DNA of 64,000 nt from Burkholderiales bacterium (lineage in GTDB: Bacteria; Pseudomonadota; Gammaproteobacteria; Burkholderiales; SG8-39), in contig JACZJT010000062.1 in the NCBI GenBank assembly GCA_014860445.1, forward strand, positions 1-64,000, read 5' to 3'. Shown here piece by piece: positions 1,484 through 16,739 of this stretch. How positions within the stretch are numbered: the stretch's first letter is position 1; each line of letters opens with the position of its first letter. A program made the translations under genes and the position numbers. The notes below the pieces were generated by a model. It was given only the letters and a program-made list of their open reading frames with translations, was not told the origin of the DNA and did no database searches.

Positions 1484-1614
1484 GGGGCATTTCAAACGCA
1501 ACTGAAAAACCGTTGCTCGCGGAGGCAGCCCTGAGCGTCGGCGGCCATTTGCGGTCCAAGTCTTGGTGCGCTATTCCCGGTCGCGGCGGACCAAGGTTGC
1601 GTCAAAGTGGTTTT

Positions 1615-2394
1615 CTATTGGAGCGGTGAGTAAATGACCGATGGCAGGCTCGCAATTTGGAGCTGAACGTCAAGAAGATAATATTGAAGGTACGCCAATG
1701 TCAGGCTTAACAAACCGACGGTCTGCCGTAGAAGCGGCGATCTGGTGAGCGCAGGACTCGGATGCGGGCGCTCGGTCGTTCTTCGTTTAGAGGCTTCCGC
1801 CAATCGTTTGATTACAGTGTCGGTTTGTTCTTTCGCCCAAGTGTCGGATTCCAAGACCTCCAGCTCGCCGGGCGCGGCGATTGCTTCATTTCGTTTTTCG
1901 ATTGCCGTGGTCAGTTTAGCCTCTGCCTTGAGCCAATCCACCAGCTCGCGGTCCTCGCGGTCGATATGTCGATTCATCCAGTTTCGGAGATAACCGGTTA
2001 TCTGGACAGCATTTCTATGACCCAGCTCAAACCTGTAGCGATTCCCTGCAATTTCCGTCAGCAGTGCGCTGTGCTCTTTCGCGTGCGCATCCGTCCGCGG
2101 GTAGTCCACCGACCGCATCAAGTCTTCCTCGAATCGAAAATGCTGATAGGAAACATCAATGAAGGCTTGAAGTAGTTCGAGTGGATCGCTTTCGACGTCA
2201 TCCGCGCGAGCATTAACTAGAGACTCAACGATGGCGTCTGCCAGCAGAAACATTCGGTCGTGCTGCGCGTCGATTTCCGAATTGCCAAGCTTGATTAGCT
2301 CAGTCTGATCAAATCTGGATCGAGGCGAGATTCGCAATGGAACTTTTTTACGACCGATTATCACGATATCCGTCTGCGCGATCGAGTAATGCAT
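1615..2394 (-). CDS. Bacteriohemerythrin-domain protein with long C-terminal extension
   Basis: IDAQHDRMFLLADAIV ... HFRFEEDLMRSVDYPRTDAHAKEHSALL hemerythrin His/Glu pattern; start codon uncertain (ORF open to 2439). Confidence 0.75.
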   Translation of the reverse strand: MHYSIAQTDIVIIGRKKVPLRISPRSRFDQTELIKLGNSEIDAQHDRMFLLADAIVESLVNARADDVESDPLELLQAFIDVSYQHFRFEEDLMRSVDYPRTDAHAKEHSALLTEIAGNRYRFELGHRNAVQITGYLRNWMNRHIDREDRELVDWLKAEAKLTTAIEKRNEAIAAPGELEVLESDTWAKEQTDTVIKRLAEASKRRTTERPHPSPALTRSPLLRQTVGLLSLTLAYLQYYLLDVQLQIASLPSVIYSPLQ

Positions 2395-2972
2395 CCTGAA
2401 TGGCCTGGTTCGGCGAGAGCCGCAAATAACTGGCGGCAACGGGCGCGTGCAGCCTCGACCTTGGCGGCTGCGTCGGTCCGGTTTGCGTCGATCTTGGACG
2501 CATCGGTCACGGTATTGATCAGCGCGGCCTCGGCTTTGGCGAGGGCTGCTTCAAGAAGTTCTCGGGCAGCCGTTGCCTGGGCGAGTGCGATTTCAACGTC
2601 CTCGTGCCTGTCCACAGTGATTGAACCCCCGGGAATTGGGTATTGTTAAAATTTGTTAAAGTCTATGTGAAGAGCCTTGATCCGCATATAGATCAAATGG
2701 ATAGCAGGTGGATTATTACGCAAGAAATGCCAAATAATTCACACAAGCAAGGTTTTCTGGTGGTTGACGATCCGATCCACAACCGGCGATGAGCGTGCGT
2801 AAAGGTCCGCGAACGGCATGGGCAGAGGGTCAGAAACTGCGATGCAGAATGTCTCTTCAAGGTCAAAGTTGTTGAGGAATTGCTCTGGTTTTCACGCCAG
2901 GGAAGAGCGCGACCCTAAGCTCGCCTATTGCTTCGGCAGCAAAGTAGACAAACCAATGCACAGATCGTGTGA

Positions 2973-4118
2973 TCACGACTTGTTGCGGGCGCGCGCGCCC
3001 CTGCGGAATATATACCCCCCGCAGCCCATCAGTACCGCATTCACCCAGAACACCGGGAACAAGCCGAATGCAGAGCCTACCAATCCAAACGCAAGCGGGC
3101 CGATCACGCGCACGAAATGATTGGCGGTAAAGCGCAAGCCCAGCGCCTCGCCCGAGCGGTCTGCCGGCGACTGGCTGTAGGTCATCATCATGGTGATTGG
3201 AGGACCGCAGCCCATACCGAGGCCAAGCAGCAGGGCCGCCAGGGAAAGCAGGGCGGTATTGCCGCAAAACGGAATCAGAAAATAGCTGGCGGCGGCAATG
3301 TAGAACGCACCGGCCAGTATCACCTCCTCGTTCATTCGCGCGACCATATGCGGTATGACGGCACGCACGATGAATGAAGCTGCAGCGAACATTGCCAGTA
3401 CCACGCCGATCGCGGAAGCGGAGAGGCCGATGTCGTGGCCGTAGATCGGCAGATAGAACTGGAATAGGTCGATGCCGAGTTGCACCATGCTGCTTGTCAC
3501 GAGCACGCGACGCACATTTCGGTCGGCCAGCATTTCTTTGATGCTGCCAGCGGGCCCGGTATCGGATTTGTCGCCCGGGAGAAGACCGCCTCGAAAGACG
3601 AGCATCAAGACGGCGATCAGCGAAAGCAGCACGAAATTGAGGCAGGCCAGGCCGAAGCCGATGTGGTCGATGGAAAATCCGGAGACCATAGGGCCGAGGA
3701 AGTTGGCGAAAGCCGCAACCATCGCGAAATTGCTGTAGTTACGCGCATGTTCCTTCGATTTCCCCAAAGCGCCCACAAGGTTCTGCAATGAAACGGTATA
3801 GAAGGTGAACGACAGACCGAGCAACGCCGCGGAAAAATACAGCGCTGGCAGCCGCGGAAACAGGTACGGAATCAGCATGCCGCAGCCGCTGCCAGCTGCG
3901 CCAAAGATAAGCAGCCAACGCGCGCCAAATCGATCTGTCAGTCTGCCTGCCAACCATGCAAGCAGCATCGGAAACGCGGAGAATGTCGCAGCAAGCACAC
4001 CGATTGCAAACGGCAGCGCGCCAAACTGAAGGGCGTACAGCGTGAGCAATACGCGACCGCCGGCAACGGTGCTGAAATTGAGCAGCGCAAGCGCAAGGAC
4101 GAGATGGATGGGCTTCAA
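2973..4118 (-). CDS. MFS transporter
   Basis: 381 aa, about 12 hydrophobic segments, motif GRLTDRFGARWLLIFG. Confidence 0.88.
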   Translation of the reverse strand: MKPIHLVLALALLNFSTVAGGRVLLTLYALQFGALPFAIGVLAATFSAFPMLLAWLAGRLTDRFGARWLLIFGAAGSGCGMLIPYLFPRLPALYFSAALLGLSFTFYTVSLQNLVGALGKSKEHARNYSNFAMVAAFANFLGPMVSGFSIDHIGFGLACLNFVLLSLIAVLMLVFRGGLLPGDKSDTGPAGSIKEMLADRNVRRVLVTSSMVQLGIDLFQFYLPIYGHDIGLSASAIGVVLAMFAAASFIVRAVIPHMVARMNEEVILAGAFYIAAASYFLIPFCGNTALLSLAALLLGLGMGCGPPITMMMTYSQSPADRSGEALGLRFTANHFVRVIGPLAFGLVGSAFGLFPVFWVNAVLMGCGGYIFRRGARARNKS

Positions 4119-4131
4119 TCTTGTTTTCGAT

Positions 4132-5319
4132 TCAGATTGAAGTCAAAAGCCGTGGGGATATTTCCTCAGTTCGCGTGACTCCAAGAAGGGCCATATTCCT
4201 GCGAATTTCCGTCTTGAGAATATCCGCAGCCAAGGTGACGCCCTGCTCGCCTCCGACTGCGGCGGCGTAGAGAAATGGGCGCCCGACAAAGACGAACTTA
4301 GCACCCAGAGCCAGCGCCTTGATGACATCGGTGCCGCGGCGTATACCACTATCGAGCATCACAATCGTTTTGGATCCCACCCGGTTCACGATCGCGGGTA
4401 ATGCCGCCAGTGGGGCAATCGTTCCATCCAGCTGCCGTCCACCGTGATTGGATACGATGATTCCGTCTGCGCCGTGGTTTGCGGCGTTTGCCGCGTCATC
4501 TTCGTGCAGCAAGCCCTTTATGATCAGCCTGCCGGACCAGCGCTCTCGAATTTTTGCGAAATGACTCCAGTTGAGATGATCGCGCTTGCCCTGCTCACGC
4601 AGGATATTGGGCGAAATGATGGGGGCGCCGCGCGTCGCATACGAGTTCTCGAAATGCGGTATGCCGTAATTGAAAATCGTGCGCGCCAGCGTTCCCAGGC
4701 TCCAGGCCGGGTGCGACAGCCCGTCCCAGGCGAGGCGCAGGCTCGGACGCAGCGGCGTTGAAAAACCCGAGCGCACGTTGTTTTCCCGGTTGGCGAGTGC
4801 GGCGGTATCGACGGTCAGCATCAGCGTCCCGAATCCGGCGGCGGCAACGCGGTCCAATAAGGCATCGATCTTCTCCGCTTCGCCGGGCAGGTATGCCTGG
4901 AACCAGGTCCCCGGCGCAACCCTGGCGACGTCCTCCAGCGGAATCAGCGAGGATCCGCTCATGACCATAGGAATGCCGGCATTGCGCGCCGCCCGCGCCA
5001 TCACGATGTCCCCGCGATATGCCATCAGCGCGCTGATGCCCATGGGCGCGATACCGAAAGGCGCGCTGTAGGTCGTGCCCAAAAGCTCGGTATCGGTCGA
5101 GCGCGCGGATACGTTGGTCAGGACGCGCGGCAGAAAACCGTAGCGTTGAAACGACGCCTCATTCTGCCGCAGCGACGAACCGGTTTCGCTCGCGCCGGCG
5201 ATATAGCCGTACAGGGGCCGCGGCAGGTGGCGCTTTGCCAGCAGATCGAAGTCGTTCAGATTCAGGACGCCCCGGATACGCCTGGGCGGCCTGGATGCCG
5301 CTGCAACCGGCGCGGTCAT
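4132..5319 (-). CDS. FMN-dependent alpha-hydroxy acid dehydrogenase/oxidase (LldD/glycolate oxidase family)
   Basis: NHGADGIIVSNHGGRQLDG, LDSGIRRGTDVIKALALGAKFVFVGRPFLYA; ATG at 5319 overlaps the TctA stop by 4 bp. Confidence 0.92.
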   Translation of the reverse strand: MTAPVAAASRPPRRIRGVLNLNDFDLLAKRHLPRPLYGYIAGASETGSSLRQNEASFQRYGFLPRVLTNVSARSTDTELLGTTYSAPFGIAPMGISALMAYRGDIVMARAARNAGIPMVMSGSSLIPLEDVARVAPGTWFQAYLPGEAEKIDALLDRVAAAGFGTLMLTVDTAALANRENNVRSGFSTPLRPSLRLAWDGLSHPAWSLGTLARTIFNYGIPHFENSYATRGAPIISPNILREQGKRDHLNWSHFAKIRERWSGRLIIKGLLHEDDAANAANHGADGIIVSNHGGRQLDGTIAPLAALPAIVNRVGSKTIVMLDSGIRRGTDVIKALALGAKFVFVGRPFLYAAAVGGEQGVTLAADILKTEIRRNMALLGVTRTEEISPRLLTSI

Positions 5320-6836
5320 GCCTGCTTGTCGTTCGCTTGCGCGCCTGCGGAAGGCCGGCGCAGCCGGCGCATGATTGCGGGGCCGAAGACGACGCCGAGC
5401 GTCAATGCGAAGATGATCTGGCTGGTGGTATTGGCCCACAGGATGGTCCAGTCCCCGCGGCTGATGCGCAGCGCCAGGCGCAGGTTGGATTCGGCGAAAT
5501 CGCCGAGGATCAGCCCCAGCACCATCGGCGGAAGCGGGAACTTGAGCTTGTCCATGGCATAGCCGATCGCGCCAAAACCCAGCATCAGGTAGACGTCGTA
5601 CATGCGGCCGTGGATCGCGTAGACGCCGATTACCATCAGCGCCGCAATGATGGCGCCCAGGAGGGGCCGCGGCAGCCGCAGGACTTTGGCAAAGCTGTTG
5701 GTGGCCAGCGATCCGCCGAGGAAGATCAGCAGGATCGCACCGAACAGGAATTGCCACATGAAACCGAAGACGATGTCCGGATGCTCGCGGAACAGCATCG
5801 GCCCCGGCTGCATGCCGTGGATCAGCAATCCGCCCAGCATCACAGCCGCGACCGCCGTGCCGGGAATGCCGAGCGTCAAGGCCGGGATCATGGCCGCCGC
5901 GGTGTCGGCGTTGTTCGCAATTTCCGCAGCGGCGACGCCCTCGGGCTCGCCCTGGCCGAAAGCGTCCTGGTTGCGCGAAGCACGTTTGGCTTCGTTATAG
6001 CTGATGAAGGCCGCCATCGATCCGCCGGCGCCGGGCAAAATTCCAATCAGAATACCGATCACCGAACCGCGCAGCCAGGTTTTCCAGAAGCGGAACATGC
6101 TCGGAAGACTCTTCCACAGGCTTTGCGTGCCCAAATTCTGCGTTGCGGAGGCGTCGGCAGCTTCCGGGCTCTCGAGCAGATCGATCACCGGTGGCAGTGC
6201 GTAGAGGCCGACCAACAGCACCACGATATGTATGCCGTCGAGCAGTTCAGTCTGATCGTAGACGAAGCGGTCATAGCCCGTAATGCCGTCCGTCCCCACC
6301 AGCGAAAAGAGTACCCCGCCGGCTGCGCTGACCAGGCCTTTCACCGGGCTGCCACCGAGCAGGAAGACGATGCTCGACAGTCCGAATACCGCGGTCCAGA
6401 AAACCTCGGCCGGACCGAACAGCAAAGTCAGTTTGGCCAGCGGTGGCGCCAACAGCATCAGCGAGAAGGCGCTGGCAATTCCTCCCAGCGCCGACGACAC
6501 CACGGCGACCTGCAGGGCGTAGCCCCCGCGCCCCGATTGAGCCATCGGATAACCGTCGAAGGTCGTGGCGACTGCCGCCGGGGTTCCCGGGATGCGCAGC
6601 AGCACGGCCGGTATGGCGCCGCCATACATCGCTCCGTTGTAAATGCCGGCCATCATCCCCAGCGCGACCAGCGGACTAAGCGTGAATGTAAACGGGATCA
6701 GGACCGAGATCGCCATGGTGGCGCTCAGTCCCGGCAAGGCGCCGACGACGATTCCGGAGATAACGCCGACCACCACCGCCGCCAGGTTGGCCCATTGAAG
6801 CACGCCGGGGAGCGCGTCGAGCAATTCGCCGTACAT
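5316..6836 (-). CDS. Tripartite tricarboxylate transporter permease TctA family
   Basis: GVISGIVVGALPGLSATMAISVLIPFTFTLSP and GILPGAGGSMAAFISYNEAKRAS. Confidence 0.95.
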   Translation of the reverse strand: MYGELLDALPGVLQWANLAAVVVGVISGIVVGALPGLSATMAISVLIPFTFTLSPLVALGMMAGIYNGAMYGGAIPAVLLRIPGTPAAVATTFDGYPMAQSGRGGYALQVAVVSSALGGIASAFSLMLLAPPLAKLTLLFGPAEVFWTAVFGLSSIVFLLGGSPVKGLVSAAGGVLFSLVGTDGITGYDRFVYDQTELLDGIHIVVLLVGLYALPPVIDLLESPEAADASATQNLGTQSLWKSLPSMFRFWKTWLRGSVIGILIGILPGAGGSMAAFISYNEAKRASRNQDAFGQGEPEGVAAAEIANNADTAAAMIPALTLGIPGTAVAAVMLGGLLIHGMQPGPMLFREHPDIVFGFMWQFLFGAILLIFLGGSLATNSFAKVLRLPRPLLGAIIAALMVIGVYAIHGRMYDVYLMLGFGAIGYAMDKLKFPLPPMVLGLILGDFAESNLRLALRISRGDWTILWANTTSQIIFALTLGVVFGPAIMRRLRRPSAGAQANDKQA

Positions 6837-6849
6837 TGAGCGACCCTCG

Positions 6850-7305
6850 TCAGCGCAGGAAAAATTCGGCGGGAAACTGCTGGCCCATCGCGAAGTTGAA
6901 GACCGCGTAGACACTTCCCACGAAGATGGCGGTAGCCAGCAGCAGGCGCGCCGGATTGCGGTAGCCGAATGCCCAGGCCACGATAGGCACCATCAGAACG
7001 GTCGATGTGTAGAACCCGATCAGCGGCACCAGAACCGCATACGCCACCATGGCGAAATAGGCACTGAACGCCCGCTTGGGGCGACGAACCACAGGCGCCT
7101 GTGTCACTCCACGACGTTGCGCAATCACGTTCCGGCCGAGCAAGATCGCGCCGAGCACGATCAGGAAAACCAGCATCGCAACCGGCAGCATCGCCGACAT
7201 GGTGGGCATTTTCACGGCTTGGAAGAGCAGCGCCGCTGCAGCCAGAATGATGACGATTCCGGCTATGCCATCGGCGCCCACAACCGGACTGCTGGACTTG
7301 GACAT
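6850..7305 (-). CDS. Tripartite tricarboxylate transporter TctB family protein
   Basis: 151 aa, four hydrophobic segments, position between TctA and TctC. Confidence 0.85.
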   Translation of the reverse strand: MSKSSSPVVGADGIAGIVIILAAAALLFQAVKMPTMSAMLPVAMLVFLIVLGAILLGRNVIAQRRGVTQAPVVRRPKRAFSAYFAMVAYAVLVPLIGFYTSTVLMVPIVAWAFGYRNPARLLLATAIFVGSVYAVFNFAMGQQFPAEFFLR

Positions 7306-7339
7306 GCGTCGGTCCCCAAGGTTAAGTGCCTATTTCGAT

Positions 7340-7361
7340 GCGAGGGGATATCTCCCCTCGC
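7340..7361. other. Intercistronic hairpin in tct operon
   Basis: GCGAGGGGA-TATC-TCCCCTCGC, 9-bp perfect arms, between tctC and tctB-like genes. Confidence 0.7.
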
Positions 7362-7438
7362 GCTCCCCCAGATCAGGGGCTATTTCGCCAATTCTAAAAT
7401 GGCCATCAAAAAGCTGTTGCGCGTAAGCGAGCCTGGAC

Positions 7439-7468
7439 CATGGCCCGCAATGCAGAACGCGGGCCGTG
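7439..7468. other. Stem-loop immediately downstream of tctC-like gene
   Basis: CATGGCCCGC-N10-GCGGGCCGTG (9/10 plus one wobble); no U-tract. Confidence 0.65.
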
Positions 7469-7480
7469 TGCGCGTGCGCG

Positions 7481-8440
7481 CTATTTCCAGGGCGTCGCCT
7501 TGAAGACGTCCTTGGCGCGCTGCAGCTGTTCCGCATTCAGCGCCTTGAAGTCATCGCCAGCGGTCCATTCGGTTACATTGCCGGAGGCTTTCATCGCTTC
7601 CTGGAGCTTGGGATCGTCATAGGCCTTCTTGAAAGCCGAGATGAGTTTGGCCGCTATTTCGGCGGGCATTCCCTTGGGGCCTACGAACCCACGCAGCGAA
7701 CCGTTGATTACATTGGCGCCCTGTTCTTTGAGCGTCGGGATATCCGGTGCAAACGCCGAACGATTCGTCGAGGTCACCCCGAGCACGTTGAATTCGTTCC
7801 TGAAGCTGGTCACCTCGGACACGTTCATCACGGCGACGGGAACATGCCCGCCCATGACTGCGCTGCGCGTCGGCGCTGTTCCTTTGAACGGAACGACGTT
7901 GAATTTCGTGCCGGTCGCATTTTCCAGAGTCGTCAGGGCGAAGCGGTCGTCCCCGCTCAGGGCCGCCATGCCGACGGTCAATGCGCCGGGTTCCTTCTTG
8001 GCTTTGTCCAGCAATTTCGCCAGGGTGTCTATGCCGGTATTCTTTCCAGTCACGATAACGTTGGGATCGTTCACCATATTCGCCAGGAAGGTGAAACTGT
8101 CCGCCGTATATTTGACGCTGCTGCCGTCTATGGTCCGCGCCATCACGCCGGGCAGATTGTAGGTGCCCAGGGTGTAGCCGTCCGGGGCGGCTTCCGCCAC
8201 TGCCGTCACGGCGATGCGGCCGCCGGCGCCAGGTATGTTCTTGATGACGATCTTCGCGCCGTTGCCGAGGTATTTCTCGACAAAGGGTGCCACCGTGCGC
8301 GCCATCACGTCCGTGCCGCCGCCTGCCGAAAATCCGACCAGCATCTGAATTTCCTTTTCCGGGTACGCAGCCAGCGCCACGCTCGCCGCCATCATGCTGG
8401 CGGACACGGCCAGGACCGTTGCTTTCAGAAAATGCTTCAT
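7481..8440 (-). CDS. Tripartite tricarboxylate transporter substrate-binding protein (TctC/Bug family)
   Basis: MKHFLKATVLAVSASMMAASVALA signal peptide; YPEKEIQMLVGFSAGGGTDVMARTVAPFVEKYLG. Confidence 0.95.
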   Translation of the reverse strand: MKHFLKATVLAVSASMMAASVALAAYPEKEIQMLVGFSAGGGTDVMARTVAPFVEKYLGNGAKIVIKNIPGAGGRIAVTAVAEAAPDGYTLGTYNLPGVMARTIDGSSVKYTADSFTFLANMVNDPNVIVTGKNTGIDTLAKLLDKAKKEPGALTVGMAALSGDDRFALTTLENATGTKFNVVPFKGTAPTRSAVMGGHVPVAVMNVSEVTSFRNEFNVLGVTSTNRSAFAPDIPTLKEQGANVINGSLRGFVGPKGMPAEIAAKLISAFKKAYDDPKLQEAMKASGNVTEWTAGDDFKALNAEQLQRAKDVFKATPWK

Positions 8441-8726
8441 GAGAATTCCTCCGTTACATGGTTCGTCATAGTGAACCCGGATTAACGCTCCGGATTTGTT
8501 CGCACATCCGCCCGCAAGGCGGGAAGAAGTCGTTCTGCTTCGGCGCCTCGATTCGACACGCGCTGGACCGCTCGCCGGCCTGCATCTACGCACGAAAGAA
8601 TGCGGCCACATCTTAGGATTGCGCCGCTGATGCGGGCAATCCCGTTGCGCAGAGTGAAACGGCGTCGCTGACGCTCGATCCCGTGAAAGTCGAAGCTGTC
8701 GCGCGGCCCATGGCACAACTCCGCTC

Positions 8727-9788
8727 CTACTCCGAGTCCAGCACCTGCACCTGCTTGCCGAATGCGGCCTCGAATCGCGCCGCATATGCGGGCCACACCT
8801 CGGGATTGATCAGGCGTGGCGGCCTGCCGCCCTTGAGCACGCCCGCGATCTGTTCGGCCGCAATGGCGGCCATATTGCGCCGCGCCTCGTGGGTCACCCC
8901 GGCGGTGTGGTAGCCGGCGATCACGCTGTCGAGCTTCAGCAGCGGGTGGTCCAGCGGCGGCGGCTCCTTGTCCCATACGTCCAGCCCGGCGCCACCGACC
9001 TTGCCGGTCTCGAGTGCGGCAAGCAAGGCCCCTTCATCGTGGATGCCGCCGCGCGCGGTGGTGATGAACAGCGCGCCCTGCTTCATCCGCTGAAAGGCCC
9101 TGGCGTCGATCATGCCTATGGTGTCCGGCGCGCGCGGGCAGTGCAGCGAGACCACGTCCGAGCGCGCCAGCAAATCGTCGAAGGACACCGACACGCCGCC
9201 GCGCCGCGCGATTTCCTCCGCGGTCAGGTACGGGTCGGCGGCCAGCACACTCATGCCGAATGCGTGCGCCAGCGCCGCGACCCGGGTCCCGACATGGCCG
9301 ATGCCGATGATGCCGAGGACCTTGCCGCCGATTTCGTGGCCCATGACGTCTTCGCGCTTGAATCCGCGCTCATTGCGCATGCGCCGGTCAAGTTCGATGA
9401 CGCGCCGGTAAAGCGAAATGATCAGGCCGAAAGTGAGTTCCGCGACCGAGTTGGCGTTGCCACCGGCCTGATTCACCAGCGCGACGCCGGCTTTGGTGCA
9501 GGCGGGCACGTCCACCGTGTCGTAGCCGGCGCCGGCCGAGGAGACGCACAGCAACTGCGGACAGCGCGCGAGCAACTCGGCGCTGACGAACCAGCGCCGC
9601 GGCAGCTCGTCCTTGGCGGAGGAGGTGTGATAGACATGCGCCTGTTCCAGCGCCGCCCAGCCGGCCTCCTCCGGGTCGGCGCGTCTGCACACCGTCAGAT
9701 CGATATCGGACTCGTGCCCCAGTCGCTCGTCGAAGGCCGGATTGATGGGTAGATCGAAGCGGACTACATTTTTGGTTATTGCGGACAT
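8727..9788 (-). CDS. D-2-hydroxyacid dehydrogenase (phosphoglycerate dehydrogenase-like), NAD-binding
   Basis: GGKVLGIIGIGHVGTRVAALAHAFGM; VVSLHCPRAPDTIGMI; GGAGLDVWDKEPP. Confidence 0.93.
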   Translation of the reverse strand: MSAITKNVVRFDLPINPAFDERLGHESDIDLTVCRRADPEEAGWAALEQAHVYHTSSAKDELPRRWFVSAELLARCPQLLCVSSAGAGYDTVDVPACTKAGVALVNQAGGNANSVAELTFGLIISLYRRVIELDRRMRNERGFKREDVMGHEIGGKVLGIIGIGHVGTRVAALAHAFGMSVLAADPYLTAEEIARRGGVSVSFDDLLARSDVVSLHCPRAPDTIGMIDARAFQRMKQGALFITTARGGIHDEGALLAALETGKVGGAGLDVWDKEPPPLDHPLLKLDSVIAGYHTAGVTHEARRNMAAIAAEQIAGVLKGGRPPRLINPEVWPAYAARFEAAFGKQVQVLDSE

Positions 9789-9845
9789 CGGCTTTTCCTC
9801 AAATGGTCATGCCAGCCGTCGGCTGTCATGGGTGGTTCGGTTGGG

Positions 9846-10547
9846 TCACAGCGTCTCGCCGGCCTTGAGCACGCCGGCTGCGCGCAGCGCGCTGTCGAGC
9901 CACGCCGGCCGCAGCGCTTCATTGCGGCGTATGCCTTCGATGCGCTTGTTCTCCTCAGTCAACTTCTTTGCCGCGAGTTCCAGCAGCGATTCCGCCTTCT
10001 CGCGCTCTACCACCACGACACCGTCGGCATCACCGAGCACCAGGTCGCCCGGGTTCACGGCGACCCCGCCGACCGATACCGGCCAGTTGATTCGACCGGG
10101 TATGAATTTGGTCGGTCCATTCGGATTGGTGCCGACGGAAAACACCGGGAAGCCGAGTTCGATGAGCTCCAGGCTGTCGCGAACGGCCGCGTCGACGACC
10201 AGGCCGCCCAGGCCGATCACCTTGCAGGCATTCACCATGATGGCGCCGGTCAAGGCGCAGGTCTGATCGCCCTTGCCGTCTATGACCAGCACGTCGCCGG
10301 GCTGGGCCATGGCCATGGCCGCGTGGATCATCAGGTTGTCGCCCGGGCGCACTTCCACGGTGAAAGCCGGTCCTGCGAGTTTCATCGTCGGTGCCAGCGC
10401 GCGTATGCGGCCATGCATGGTGCCGCGCCGGCCTGCGACGTCGGCCAGTATCGCCGGCTGGAACGCCGCCGCCCGCTTCACGACTTCAGGGGAAACGCGC
10501 TCGATGTCGCGGCGAATATCCGGTGATGCGTTTGACTTGTCGTTCAT
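9846..10547 (-). CDS. RraA family protein / 4-hydroxy-4-methyl-2-oxoglutarate aldolase-like
   Basis: PGDNLMIHAAMAMAQPGDVLVIDGKG ... GLGGLVVDAAVRDSLEL ... VNPGDLVLGDADGVVVV. Confidence 0.9.
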   Translation of the reverse strand: MNDKSNASPDIRRDIERVSPEVVKRAAAFQPAILADVAGRRGTMHGRIRALAPTMKLAGPAFTVEVRPGDNLMIHAAMAMAQPGDVLVIDGKGDQTCALTGAIMVNACKVIGLGGLVVDAAVRDSLELIELGFPVFSVGTNPNGPTKFIPGRINWPVSVGGVAVNPGDLVLGDADGVVVVEREKAESLLELAAKKLTEENKRIEGIRRNEALRPAWLDSALRAAGVLKAGETL

Positions 10548-10649
10548 TGCGCTTGATTCCTGGAAAGCTGCGAGGGGGTGCGAAATGCTCTGGCGCGAAT
10601 ATAGGGTCGCGCGCTTGCAATGGACAATCGTGTTGCGTAGGATGAAACG

Positions 10650-11414
10650 ATGCCGACGAAGACCAAGGGTGCGGGCGTCACTGCCGTCGCACGGGCAATG
10701 GCGATTCTCGATGCCTTCCAGGCGAACGAATCCAGCGTCAGCCTGAGTGAGCTCGCGCGGCGCACCAAGCTGCACAAGACCACCGTGCTGCGCATTGCGC
10801 GCACCATGGCGGCGGCACGCTATCTGGTTCAGCTTGCCGACGGCTCATGGCGCCTGGGTCCGAATGCAGGCTGGATAGGCGCGCGCTATCAGACCACCTT
10901 CGACGGCTCGACACGCATCGAATCCATTTTGCGCAATCTGTCCAATGTGACCGGCGAAAGTGCGATCTACTACATCAGGGAAGAGAATTCGCGCATCTGC
11001 GTCGTGCGCGTCGACGGCCCGAATACCGACTATCACCATGTACGCGTAGGCGAGGCGCTGCCGCTAACTCACGGCGCAGTCGGCCATGTCCTGCTCGCAT
11101 TCTCCGGTGAACCCGGATCGCCGTACGACGCCATACGGCGTGCCGGTTACCACCTGACACTGGGTGAACGCGATCCACTCATCGGGAGCCTCGCCTGCCC
11201 GGTCTTCGGCCTGAATTCGGCGCTGCTGGGCTGCATCGGACTGGCCGGACCGATCAAACGCTTTACACGCGCGACCTGTGCGCGCCACCTGCCTGCGCTG
11301 CGCAAAGCGGCCGGCGCGCTGACCTACGAACTCGGTCGCATGCTCTCGGATGTACACGAGCCACGCGAGGAGCGAAGACTAACGCAAAACGCGAGGCGAT
11401 TGCGCGGCCAGTAA
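10650..11414 (+). CDS. IclR family transcriptional regulator
   Basis: AVARAMAILDAFQANESSVSLSELARRTKLHKTTVLRIARTM wHTH; divergent from the RraA-like operon. Confidence 0.9.
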   Translation: MPTKTKGAGVTAVARAMAILDAFQANESSVSLSELARRTKLHKTTVLRIARTMAAARYLVQLADGSWRLGPNAGWIGARYQTTFDGSTRIESILRNLSNVTGESAIYYIREENSRICVVRVDGPNTDYHHVRVGEALPLTHGAVGHVLLAFSGEPGSPYDAIRRAGYHLTLGERDPLIGSLACPVFGLNSALLGCIGLAGPIKRFTRATCARHLPALRKAAGALTYELGRMLSDVHEPREERRLTQNARRLRGQ

Positions 11415-11586
11415 GAACGGTTGGAGAAAGATCGAATTCTTCGCGACGCGACTGAATTTCGAAGGGGCGGATGCGTGAATGTCCGGTGCGAGGTATAACC
11501 GGTCATCCGATCATTTGAGCGTCAGTGACGGCCAAGGGTCGGGAGCGCTCGGTGACGGGTGGCCGCTTCCAGGAAACGGAAATTCA

Positions 11587-11695
11587 CTGACCGCTTTCCG
11601 GCGATGAACCCGAAGAGACGTCGGTCGCTTCACGACCCGAAGTCGCCGTTCGTGCCTCCACCCCTATCCGGCCGCTACCGGCAACAAGCGGTCAG
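11587..11695. repeat. About 109-bp intergenic element bounded by inverted repeats
   Basis: CTGACCGCTT (11587-11596) and its exact reverse complement AAGCGGTCAG (11686-11695). Confidence 0.6.
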
Positions 11696-11721
11696 AAAGC
11701 CAAGGAAGTTCGAGTCCTGAG

Positions 11722-11739
11722 TGGCTCGCCAACTAGGGC
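11722..11739 (+). repeat. Direct repeat copy 1 flanking two-gene island
   Basis: TGGCTCGCCAACTAGGGC; 17/18 match to 14531-14548. Confidence 0.7.
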
Positions 11740-11777
11740 ATATCTGGGTGCCAGTGGCACGTCCTCATGCGCTTGGG

Positions 11778-11806
11778 TTGACGTTGTGGTCCCCGTGCTC
11801 TAACTT
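11778..11806 (+). promoter_or_regulatory. Candidate sigma70-like promoter for the two-gene island
   Basis: TTGACG-N17-TAACTT, 32 nt upstream of the GTG at 11839. Confidence 0.4.
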
Positions 11807-11838
11807 GGGCCATTCGTAGCCACTTATTCCAACAAGAC

Positions 11839-13326
11839 GTGGACTACTACACCGCCTATAAACCGATCCGGAACCGACTTCGGAAATTCAAGCCAGCTTC
11901 TGTGCTGTCGCGCGCGCTCGAGGTGTTATGGCAGCCCGCCGATTCCGAGATGGCCGCCCTGCAGCGTGCCCCCTGGAACGTGCTGCTCTTGGTGAAATGG
12001 GCGCTCCTCAATGAGGACACCTCTGATCACCGCGGGCCAGACATGCCAATGGAAGTGTTCGATGCGATCCGGCAGGAGTTGTGGTCTTTCCCGGACCGTG
12101 TCGACATGATCCGAAAAGGCAGTATGCCGGTGCGCCTCTTCATGCGGCGACTGCTATTTCAGCAGATCGAGTTCCAAAGGAAAGTCACACCAAGCTTCGT
12201 GCGACAACCGGCAATCCTGGCAAGCCTGCCGCCTGAGCATGTGCTTCGCAGCCTCTTTCGCACCAGATCCGGCATGGAGCCGCTCGACTTTCTTGATCTC
12301 AGCCTGGCTGCTCACGGCGCAATTCTCAACGGCCGGGCGCAAATGACTCGCGATTGGTACAAGCCGCTATTGCCGGCGTATGGTCCCGAAAAGATCAACG
12401 CATTCCTTCGCTGCGTGTCAGCCGACTATCCGGAGCTCGTCGCGTACGTGCGCGGTCTCAAGAATGCAAACGAGCGAAATGTCTCCGAGCATTTCCACTT
12501 CACGCCTTTGAAGCGGTTTCCCTTTCTGCGAACGCAGGGCATCTACGTATGCTGGCATCGAATGGTCTTCCTCCGTGGCATGGAAGAATTCGCGCACCTG
12601 TTGATGAGTGAGGCGGGAGCCGATTACGCGCGGCGATTTGGCAAAGTCTTCGAGCGCCACATCATCGCAGAGATCGTCAAGACCGGTAGAAACTTCTATG
12701 ATGAGGACGCGCTGCGCCAAGCATTGGGAAATGACATCGAAGTGCCCGATGCGTTGATTCCCATGGGAGCGTTCAATCTTATCGTGGAAGCCAAAGCCGG
12801 CTTGTTCGACGATTCGGTCATGACGATCGGCGACTCCGAATACTTCATGCAGAGGACGAGGCCCCTTGCCAAAGCTATCAGGCAGGGATGGTCGGCATCC
12901 GTAGCCGCTCGAAAGGGCACAGCGCCAGCTGACCTCCGCAATGCCGCGGAGGACTATTTGTTCGTGGTCACCAATAAACCGCTCAACGTCGGCTCAGGAT
13001 CTGACCTGCGCTCTCTGTACCCGGTAGGCGAGCTCGAGTATCCAAACGAGGAAGCGAAGGCTTTGCTACCCTTTGAGCGCGTCTATTTCGTTTCTGTCGA
13101 CGAGTTCGAGCGCCTGATTGCTTCCGCTGCGGACGCGTCGAAGCTACATGAATTCTTGCGCGAGACCGTTAGACTCGATGCCGATCCAGCAACGGGTAGG
13201 TGGTTCTTTGATGACCATCTCAAGACATTTGCGGGGCTCAAAGAGTCCAGCTTCCTGGATGACACATTGGACGCCTCAAATGACCGCGTCGAGCGTGCGC
13301 TATCCACGGCGGAAAGGGCGCTATAG
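11839..13326 (+). CDS. Hypothetical protein with candidate PD-(D/E)XK nuclease signature
   Basis: 495 aa; RRFGKVFERHIIAEIV ... DIEVPDALIPMGAFNLIVEAKAG (PD-x12-ExK, with an upstream Glu in the FGKVFE helix); GTG start with no clear RBS. Confidence 0.75.
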   Translation: MDYYTAYKPIRNRLRKFKPASVLSRALEVLWQPADSEMAALQRAPWNVLLLVKWALLNEDTSDHRGPDMPMEVFDAIRQELWSFPDRVDMIRKGSMPVRLFMRRLLFQQIEFQRKVTPSFVRQPAILASLPPEHVLRSLFRTRSGMEPLDFLDLSLAAHGAILNGRAQMTRDWYKPLLPAYGPEKINAFLRCVSADYPELVAYVRGLKNANERNVSEHFHFTPLKRFPFLRTQGIYVCWHRMVFLRGMEEFAHLLMSEAGADYARRFGKVFERHIIAEIVKTGRNFYDEDALRQALGNDIEVPDALIPMGAFNLIVEAKAGLFDDSVMTIGDSEYFMQRTRPLAKAIRQGWSASVAARKGTAPADLRNAAEDYLFVVTNKPLNVGSGSDLRSLYPVGELEYPNEEAKALLPFERVYFVSVDEFERLIASAADASKLHEFLRETVRLDADPATGRWFFDDHLKTFAGLKESSFLDDTLDASNDRVERALSTAERAL

Positions 13327-13372
13327 GCGTGCTTAACTACGAGTTTCCAAGGTATCTTATCTAAGGCATTGA

Positions 13373-14443
13373 ATGATCAATTTCCCCGGTGACCCAGAAG
13401 AAAGACGCCGCTTCTTCTTCGAAGTGTTGCGAGCCGACAACGAACGGAAGGAGCGCCGCCGTGCAGAGCTGGCTGAGATAATCGCAAATGCACCGGTGCC
13501 CGACGAGGTAATGGCCGAGGTTGCATGGGGATGGGCGGACTTACTAAAGCACCATCCTGGGTTCGCGATTGAGGAGAAGGTACGCGCCCTTTCTGCGATG
13601 GTTAATGTCTTCAACGAAACGCATACCGACCTTGTAGCTCAACTCGATCGCTTCCACGACTTTTGCTCAAGTACACACTTCGGAAGCAAGACAGGGCGGG
13701 AGGAACTTTTGGCCATTGAGACCGCAGTCGATAAAGAACTTATGGCGTTTTCGATGGCAGCGATGTCTCTCGTGGATCATGTGCGGTCGGTTCGCGCTGC
13801 AATCGAAGTTGCCGACTTAGATTTAACGCGCGGCAGCATCTTCGATCACGAGGAGCACAGTTTCATTACAGACCTTCGAAACATGATCAGCCACGGCCAT
13901 TTCCCTGATGTGAGTTGGTACCTTCAATGGGGTGAGAAACGGGTATCAGATTTCGCTCTCATGTCAGAGCGACTGTTGCAGACCAAGGATGTTGGCAATA
14001 ATGCAAGACGTTTTATCACTCGATTCGGTGAGCGAGTTCAGATTCGGGCTGTTGTAGCCTCGTACTCATCAAGAGTGCGCCAGTTCTATGCATGGTATCT
14101 GCCCGCCTTAGAGGCCAATGCCACGCCGGAACTGATGGACTACCGTCGATGCAGGAAGATTTGTCGGCAAGCGTCTTCGCGTGCTTGGCACCGCGTCATG
14201 GTCGCTCACGCTATCCAATGGAAAGTGGACCCGTATGTCCACCTGGATAAGTACCTTACCCCGGACGAGGCCGAGGCTGCTTTACGGCTACCCATGCGTT
14301 CTAAGGAACAAGTCGACTGCATTATTGCCGCTGCAGATGAGCACGAGGCCTGCGATGCCGAGTTGCGAGGCATGGTGTACAAACTTTTTCGGGTAAACGT
14401 TGACGGGAACGATGCTCACCTCGCGGCGCCCACGGCCGAGTAG
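13373..14443 (+). CDS. Hypothetical protein with candidate HEPN-type Rx4H motif
   Basis: 356 aa; FITDLRNMISHGHFP (RN-x3-H) in a predicted all-helical context; 46 bp downstream of the previous gene, same strand. Confidence 0.75.
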   Translation: MINFPGDPEERRRFFFEVLRADNERKERRRAELAEIIANAPVPDEVMAEVAWGWADLLKHHPGFAIEEKVRALSAMVNVFNETHTDLVAQLDRFHDFCSSTHFGSKTGREELLAIETAVDKELMAFSMAAMSLVDHVRSVRAAIEVADLDLTRGSIFDHEEHSFITDLRNMISHGHFPDVSWYLQWGEKRVSDFALMSERLLQTKDVGNNARRFITRFGERVQIRAVVASYSSRVRQFYAWYLPALEANATPELMDYRRCRKICRQASSRAWHRVMVAHAIQWKVDPYVHLDKYLTPDEAEAALRLPMRSKEQVDCIIAAADEHEACDAELRGMVYKLFRVNVDGNDAHLAAPTAE

Positions 14444-14530
14444 CGCAGTGCTAACGGGCACGTAACGCGCACGGAGCTAGGCAATTCGGCCTATGCTGGA
14501 CCTGCGGACTGATTCAACTATTTGATTATT

Positions 14531-14548
14531 TGGCTCGCCAACCAGGGC
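14531..14548 (+). repeat. Direct repeat copy 2 flanking two-gene island
   Basis: TGGCTCGCCAACCAGGGC; 17/18 match to 11722-11739. Confidence 0.7.
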
Positions 14549-15193
14549 GTGAACAATTCCAAAACGGCAGGGAACCGAGCGGCAGCAATGCGTCGCGAGC
14601 GGTCGGTGGCTCTTGGTAGCGCGACGGTCCGGTCATGGCCGGGAGGGTGATGTCGCCAACGGCCGCTTCGTAGAAGCCCGGTTCGAAAATGGCGGACTTG
14701 GGCGAACGGCCGAAGCCTTAGCGGCTGCAACGGGTCGACTCCCGCCGTTCAGGTACAACCAAGAGCGTAGGAAAATTGCAGGACTCCGCGTGAGCGTCCG
14801 CGAAACTGTACGATCGACAGCGGACCGTTGCTACGACAATTTGGTGCCTGGAGGACAACTGTCATTTTGAACGAAGCGAGGAATAACAATTTCCACGTTT
14901 CATTTTGATCTGTACTCCCAGGCTCCACATCCACCCGCACACAAATACCATGCGCTGCCGCTCTGCGCAGGCGCTTGAAAACACGCATGAATCTTCGCGC
15001 GTCCCGTAGGGGTGCATGAATCTCTTGTACTTCGGCGCGCTTTCTGCTCCCGGTCGAGCTTGCCGATTTCAGCGACATGTCGTCGCATGTTATTGAAAAA
15101 ACACGCAGTTTGTTTCATGGTTGTGCTGCTGGCACGGCTGATGCTTTTACCAGGGTAAGCAAAGAACATTCACTTACCAGTACGGAGAACATC

Positions 15194-15559
15194 ATGAAAG
15201 CGCTAAAAAACATCCTGACAGCAAAACATGGTTTCATGGCCGAAGGCCCGGCATGGGCAGTTCCCGCCGAAACAGTCGCGGTGAAGAACGAAGCGGCTGC
15301 AGGCTTGCACCTGAAGAACGTCGCACTATTCCTTGCAGCGCCCTTCATCGGGTTGGCCTACCTCATAACATTCCCGCTGGTCGGAATGGGAATGATCGCC
15401 TGGATGGTCGGCAAGAAACTGCTCGCCAACAAAACGGCCCGCCCGATACTCCTCGCAGTCGCCGCGCCGTTCGTGAGCATCGCTTTCGTGACCGTCGGCC
15501 CGGTGGTCGGCCTGGGCGCCATGGCATACGTGGGCGGACGCGCCTTGCTGAATCCCTAG
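15194..15559 (+). CDS. Small hypothetical membrane protein
   Basis: 121 aa with two long hydrophobic segments; strong terminator follows. Confidence 0.65.
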   Translation: MKALKNILTAKHGFMAEGPAWAVPAETVAVKNEAAAGLHLKNVALFLAAPFIGLAYLITFPLVGMGMIAWMVGKKLLANKTARPILLAVAAPFVSIAFVTVGPVVGLGAMAYVGGRALLNP

Positions 15560-15579
15560 CAGCCAGGCAGCAGTAGCAC

Positions 15580-15612
15580 ACAACGGCCTCCTTCGAGGCC
15601 GTTGTCATTTTT
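15580..15612 (+). terminator. Rho-independent terminator
   Basis: ACAACGGCCTC-CTTC-GAGGCCGTTGT followed by CATTTTT. Confidence 0.9.
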
Positions 15613-15653
15613 GCGGCACGATCCGCTGAGAGGTCACGGTCTATACTTCGCCC

Positions 15654-16739
15654 ATGACCGCATCCTCGCGCACTTACGTTTATGTATCCAACGGCGCTGA
15701 CGGCGATATCGGCAGCTATCGACTGCGCGCCGACGGCACCCTGCAGCCGGGCGCGCGCTTCAGGGCCGCAGGCGCGGTCGGCCCTTTGGCGATCAGTCCG
15801 GACCGGCGCTTTCTCTATGCCGCAGTGCGCTCGCAGCCGTTCTCGGTGCATGTTTACGCGATCGCGCCGGACACGGGCGCCCTGAGCGCGCGATCGGTGG
15901 CGCCGCTGGCTGCCAGTTGTCCTTACATCGCGCTGGATCGCAGCGGCAGGTTTCTGTTCGGCGCGTCCTATCATTCGCATCTGATCAGCGTCAACGCAGT
16001 CGGCGCGGACGGGCAGGTCGCAGCGGAACCCCTGCAAGTGATCCCGGTCGGTCGCAACGCGCATTCCATCCGCGCGGACGAAAGCAACCGCAGCGTCTAC
16101 GTGCCCACGCTGGGGAGCGACCAGATATTCCAGTTTGCATTCGATCCCGGCTCCGGGCGTCTCGCTCCCTGCGCACCCGCTGCGGTGCAAGTGCAAGCCG
16201 GCACCGGGCCGCGCCATTTCGTCACCTCGGCCGACAACCGCTTCCTGTATGTGCTGAGCGAACTGCTGGGCAGCGTCTCGATCTTCGCACGCGACAGCGA
16301 GTCGGGCGCGCTGAACGAAATCGGCACGGTCTCGGGTGTGCCGCCCGGCAGCGGACTCGTGCCCGGCGCGCCGCGCCTGGCGCCGAACCCGGCGGACACC
16401 GCGCCGCCGCGCAATCGCGAGCGCGATGTCTGGGCCGCGGACATCCACCTCAGGCCGGACGGAAGATTTCTCTATACCTCGGAGCGTACCGGCAGCACGC
16501 TCTCGACCTTCAGCGTGGACGCCGATGCGCTGCGCTATCTGGGCAGCACGACCACGGAACTGCAGCCGCGCGGATTTGCGATTGCGCCGGACGGCCGCTT
16601 CCTGGTCGCCTGCGGGGAGCGTTCGGAGGCGGTTTCGGTGCATGCGATCGACCAGGAGAGCGGGGCGCTTGCGCTGCTCGAGCGATACCCCGGCGGCAAG
16701 GGCGCCAACTGGGTCGAGATCGTCAGCTTCGACGCGTAG
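15654..16739 (+). CDS. Lactonase family beta-propeller protein (6-phosphogluconolactonase-like)
   Basis: Repeated propeller blades: YVYVSNGADGDIGSYRL, RFLYAAVRSQPFSVHVYAI, GTGPRHFVTSADNRFLYVLSEL, DIHLRPDGRFLYTSERTGSTLSTF. Confidence 0.85.
   Translation: MTASSRTYVYVSNGADGDIGSYRLRADGTLQPGARFRAAGAVGPLAISPDRRFLYAAVRSQPFSVHVYAIAPDTGALSARSVAPLAASCPYIALDRSGRFLFGASYHSHLISVNAVGADGQVAAEPLQVIPVGRNAHSIRADESNRSVYVPTLGSDQIFQFAFDPGSGRLAPCAPAAVQVQAGTGPRHFVTSADNRFLYVLSELLGSVSIFARDSESGALNEIGTVSGVPPGSGLVPGAPRLAPNPADTAPPRNRERDVWAADIHLRPDGRFLYTSERTGSTLSTFSVDADALRYLGSTTTELQPRGFAIAPDGRFLVACGERSEAVSVHAIDQESGALALLERYPGGKGANWVEIVSFDA

Follow-up and report, generated by a model that had tools for sequence, protein, structure and literature searches.

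A divergent GapS1-family protein and an adjacent, plausibly HEPN-like gene in a variable locus of a Burkholderiales bacterium

Two adjacent genes were analysed in a stretch of 64,000 nucleotides from a Burkholderiales bacterium (the window). They are probably a stand-alone GapS1 anti-phage protein (gene 1) and an independently acquired HEPN-like gene (gene 2), both carried as cargo of a variable locus, which would explain why they lie side by side. The initial annotation had taken them for an undescribed two-gene module; the family of gene 1 has in fact already been described as GapS1, and its pairing with gene 2 does not recur. The family, fold model and conserved site of gene 1, the homology between gene 2 and its relatives, the non-recurrent pairing and the variable locus were all obtained by computation.

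Gene 1 and the GapS1 family

The two genes are the following:

11839..13326, + strand: gene 1, GapS1-family protein, 495 aa, GTG start (NF047931 match; start matches the Nitrosomonas homologue)
13373..14443, + strand: gene 2, all-alpha protein of an unnamed family, 356 aa, ATG start (no named-family match; relatives found by phmmer and tblastn)

Both open reading frames are longer than the longest stop-free frame obtained in 1000 shuffles of positions 11415-15076 (maximum 332, 99% 267). The two reading frames first proposed are real, and their coordinates, the 46-bp gap and the numbering of D304, E317, K319, R169 and H174 were all correct. The GTG start of gene 1 is supported by an end-to-end alignment with the annotated start of the Nitrosomonas homologue. 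The genes lie on the same strand, separated by 46 bp, and may share one transcript. Their GC contents are 0.571 (gene 1) and 0.541 (gene 2), against 0.63-0.68 for most neighbours.

It had been stated that neither gene resembles a family that can be named, which is wrong for gene 1. The NCBIfam model NF047931 (antiphage_GapS1) matches residues 10-460 with 366 bits (cut-off 320, E 2.8e-109), and the model is covered over its full length (1-455 of 455). Gene 1 has no match in Pfam, in PADLOC 2.0 or, by direct sequence search, among PDB sequences. Judged from its sequence, gene 1 is a new, divergent member of the already described GapS1 family of anti-phage nucleases. GAPS1 was reportedly described by Mahata et al. 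in 2024.

Homologues of GapS1 were gathered from Nitrosomonas, from plasmids of Erwinia and Klebsiella, from P2-like prophages of Klebsiella, from IMG/VR contigs and from several whole genomes. Gene 1 is approximately 19-31% identical to the other GapS1 proteins examined, the nearest one found being that of Methylovorus mays (31%), and given these low values a conserved function of gene 1 is an assumption. The family is sparse and patchy, members being found in 4 of 274 genomes and, within the order, in 6 of 399 (profile matches, two of these six being weak or partial). At approximately 13 loci the homologues are lone genes, located in prophages, plasmids, ICEs and chromosomes. A GAPS1-like protein is known from the Klebsiella prophage ST437-OXA245phi4.1 (PMC12774648), the same phage as one of the GapS1 loci analysed here (L008), and according to a conference report GAPS1 of K. 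pneumoniae is protective against many phages (PMC12908700).

Within gene 1, two parts can be distinguished:

11839..12558, + strand: N-terminal helical domain of gene 1, residues 1-240 (AlphaFold secondary structure; invariant alignment columns)
12622..13098, + strand: PD-(D/E)XK nuclease core of gene 1, residues 262-420, with E272, D304, E317-x-K319 and Q349 (AlphaFold; alignment)

This layout of a helical N-terminus and a PD-(D/E)XK core is the same as that of GapS1, and so are the invariant residues, although gene 1 is at most 31% identical to its nearest homologue and has an unrelated gene 46 bp downstream. In an alignment of eight GapS1 members, which are 19-25% identical to gene 1, residues E272, D304, K319 and Q349 are invariant and position 317 is always D or E; the Methylovorus homologue, closer to gene 1 and outside this alignment, has E at position 304. 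Also invariant among the eight are P45 and R103-x5-Q109-x3-Q113-x8-R122 (12145-12204) in the N-terminal part.

The AlphaFold model of gene 1, made with seven sequences, has a pLDDT of 81 and a pTM of 0.83. Its core is formed by a helix (262-280), two strands (305-308 and 312-319), a second helix (341-358) and a further strand (371-378). This is the order of helix, strand, strand, helix and strand expected for PD-(D/E)XK, with the acidic residues and the lysine placed on adjacent strands. The model supports a PD-(D/E)XK nuclease fold for the C-terminal part of gene 1, from which we infer nuclease activity. The PD-x12-ExK signature that had been guessed as the active site is thus borne out, both by its conservation in the relatives and by the modelled core.

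In a Foldseek comparison with the PDB, where all E-values for gene 1 are above 0.001, the best match is Upx (9wuf; prob 0.99, E 8.8e-3); next come the nickase Nt.BspD6I, Hjc resolvases and Vsr. Upx is listed among the nuclease-type anti-phage systems, which act by nucleic-acid degradation (PMC10855318). Although it is the top structural match, Upx differs from gene 1 in having 1212 residues against 495, in aligning with a TMq of 0.32 and in giving no sequence match. The weak structural matches to Hjc resolvases and Vsr would suit a nuclease of DNA repair or recombination that is not a defence protein. Nonetheless, the full-length match to GapS1, the patchy distribution in both genome sets and the carriage of the family by prophages and plasmids make such a role for gene 1 highly improbable.

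Gene 2 and its relatives

Gene 2 has no match in Pfam, NCBIfam, PADLOC or PHROG, and nothing useful was found among PDB sequences. Searches with peptide patterns gave nothing in genome or viral contigs, and tblastn gave nothing in phages or plasmids. Among 98 genomes of the bacterial family, only the source genome has a copy. The first relative (L030, E 8e-5, 23% identity) came from the search of 399 genomes of the order and led to plasmid-borne proteins in Micromonospora, Vibrio, Miltoncostaea and three haloarchaea. With a profile search, members were found in two further genomes. The gene 2 family spans Proteobacteria, Actinobacteria and haloarchaea. A profile built from seven relatives, with gene 2 left out, recovers residues 58-257 of gene 2 at 81.9 bits, which makes the homology secure.

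13544..14143, + strand: core of gene 2 common to its relatives, residues 58-257, with R169-x4-H174 at 13877-13894 (profile; alignment)

Within this core, R169 is invariant in all ten aligned sequences of the family. The position of H174 is kept in seven of the ten, all seven of them bacterial, mostly as LRNxxxH. The three haloarchaeal members (L036, L037 and L038) have LRH or IRH instead of LRNxxxH, with a lysine replacing the histidine; from their sequences, the activity of these members may have been lost or changed.

By itself the Rx4H motif is uninformative for gene 2, given that 78% of the shuffles of this protein contain one; a second Rx4H is present in gene 2 at 274. The pattern PD-x(8-20)-[DE]xK arises in 12% of the shuffles of gene 1. 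Since both patterns arise in shuffled sequences, the motifs of the two genes gain weight only from their conservation in relatives.

No HEPN profile matches gene 2, its relatives or the family consensus. The AlphaFold model of gene 2, obtained from the single sequence, is all-alpha with a pLDDT of 46, a value at which the fold search carries no evidential weight, and the Foldseek matches to 14-3-3 and syntaxin complexes were discarded for this reason. A match of the relative L035 to Csm2 among the PADLOC models (17.7 bits) was judged a chance helical similarity.

It is plausible that gene 2 is HEPN-like, on the basis of the conserved motif in the bacterial relatives and of the helical prediction. 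As in the RNases of the HEPN superfamily (PMC3710099), gene 2 is predicted to be all-helical, with an R-x4-H at the end of a helix that is kept in seven bacterial relatives; it differs from them in lacking a profile match and in having haloarchaeal relatives without the motif histidine. The original assignment to HEPN rests on the Rx4H that is conserved in the bacterial relatives; no profile match was found, and the model has a pLDDT of 46. Like the HEPN/MNT toxin-antitoxin systems (PMC7641770), the locus would have a HEPN-like gene that possibly forms a unit with one other gene, but here the neighbour of gene 2 is a PD-(D/E)XK protein and not a nucleotidyltransferase.

Four of the nine loci of the gene 2 family adjoin restriction, methylase or abortive-infection genes, as a raw count. 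At L084 (3976-8802), the relative overlaps a DprA-like gene; upstream are genes for an Eco57I methylase and for a PLD-SNF2 helicase, and a Bro-N gene lies downstream. This gene cluster is a possible defence operon. At L033 (6360-10376), the relative stands tail to tail with a gene whose product has an Mrr_cat_2 nuclease, a helicase and six HA domains. At L035 its vicinity includes a putAbiC gene together with a RelE/HigA pair, and at L038 a C5 methylase. Around the remaining five loci there are integrases or metabolic genes, or nothing informative. These surroundings are suggestive of a link between the gene 2 family and defence.

A second reading of gene 2 takes it for a non-catalytic HEPN-like protein, or another helical binder of nucleic acids, with no role in defence and with an incidental neighbourhood. 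The histidine that is missing in three of the ten aligned members, the HEPN profile that matches no member, and the several relatives that sit among metabolic genes all point this way. Against it stand the invariant arginine, the RNx3H, or a near variant, in seven of seven bacterial members, and the defence neighbours at four of the nine relatives. On balance, we regard a non-catalytic gene 2 as possible, if somewhat unlikely.

The variable locus and the pairing of the two genes

The locus and the repeat that flanks the two genes are defined as follows:

1484..15653, strand not assigned: variable block of ~14.2 kb containing genes 1 and 2 (flanking genes ~110 bp apart in G013 and G015)
11722..11739, + strand: left copy of an 18-nt direct repeat, TGGCTCGCCAACTAGGGC (17/18 identical to 14531-14548)
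14531..14548, + strand: right copy of the 18-nt direct repeat, TGGCTCGCCAACCAGGGC (17/18 identical to 11722-11739)

The helicase gene (32-1483) and the lactonase gene (15654-16739) that enclose the block are only ~110 bp apart in two genomes of the same genus (G013 and G015), indicating that the region from ~1.48 to 15.65 kb of the window is a variable block. In a third genome (G011, locus L082) the gap between helicase and lactonase is filled by two methyltransferase genes, and this interval is therefore a place of variable content. The lactonase served as synteny anchor instead of IclR, for which no close orthologue was found in the genus.

The block contains genes for a hemerythrin, an MFS protein, an FMN dehydrogenase, a TctA/TctC transporter, a 2-hydroxyacid dehydrogenase, RraA and IclR, as well as GapS1, gene 2 and a small membrane ORF, with genes 1 and 2 situated at one end of its ~14 kb. 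The initial annotation had placed the pair in an island that breaks a metabolic gene order. The variable DNA is there, but it extends over ~14.2 kb and includes the metabolic operon itself. Given that these metabolic genes belong to the variable block, genes 1 and 2 do not simply interrupt an ancestral metabolic order. As regards a GMT island, the Pfam annotation of the 14-kb block gave no integrase-type match in any gene with a name, and within this annotation no GMT-type mobile-island protein was noticed around gene 1.

The 18-nt repeat flanking genes 1 and 2 might be a scar of insertion or recombination, and chance also fits. It was rejected as proof of insertion because its local score of 31 is exceeded by the best of 200 shuffles (34). 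Five other sites of the repeat occur in the genome, each with 2 mismatches.

Just downstream of gene 2 there is an ORF at 15077-15559, which encodes a hydrophobic protein of 160 aa and has a lower GC content (0.56). No match to a Pfam family passes the cut-off, and the ORF may be part of the same acquired segment as genes 1 and 2.

Several observations would fit a co-operating two-gene defence module, in which gene 1 acts as a DNase on phage DNA and gene 2 as an RNase that arrests the cell. The genes share strand and low GC content, are 46 bp apart and have a possible flanking direct repeat. The HEPN superfamily has been linked to restriction-endonuclease domains (PMC3710099), and one relative of gene 2 is found beside an Mrr-helicase gene, while a second seems to share an operon with Eco57I and PLD-helicase genes. 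The comparison of loci argues against it. When both profiles were run on flanks of ~3 to 19 kb per locus, the gene 2 family was absent from all of the ~13 other GapS1 loci, and GapS1 from all nine loci of the gene 2 family. In the co-occurrence check that had been set beforehand, homologues of the two genes were found together only in the source genome: among the 399 genomes of the order, the GapS1 profile has matches in six, two of them weak or partial, and the gene 2 family in four, and elsewhere the GapS1 homologues stand alone. A recurrent two-gene defence system is not supported, and a co-operating module in this genome is unlikely. Of the defence context that had been proposed, the naming of the gene 1 family for anti-phage activity is in its favour, and the proximity of four of the nine gene 2 relatives to defence genes gives it some support; the joint module is not supported.

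It could also be that gene 2 belongs to an undescribed, widespread family of defence-linked HEPN-like RNases and was recruited here as a partner or backup of GapS1, giving a two-component variant of GAPS1. We consider this quite unlikely.

Proposed roles of the two genes

Under the preferred reading, that of a stand-alone GapS1 protein beside an independently acquired gene, the helical N-terminal part of gene 1 (~240 residues) would sense infection or be released by it. The PD-(D/E)XK domain would then cut DNA in a reaction dependent on divalent metal, the target being either incoming phage DNA or, in an abortive response, the host chromosome. The trigger, the substrate and the anti-phage effect of gene 1 are inferred, as are, for gene 2, a fold of the HEPN type and activity as an RNase. 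If active, gene 2 would be a metal-independent RNase acting through R169 and H174, and would represent a defence or toxin gene in its own right.

For the GapS1 family, the invariant R-x5-Q-x3-Q-x8-R of the N-terminal part marks a possible sensor or regulatory site. For gene 2, the analysis newly exposes a protein family that is present in bacteria and haloarchaea and is covered by no Pfam, NCBIfam or PADLOC model.
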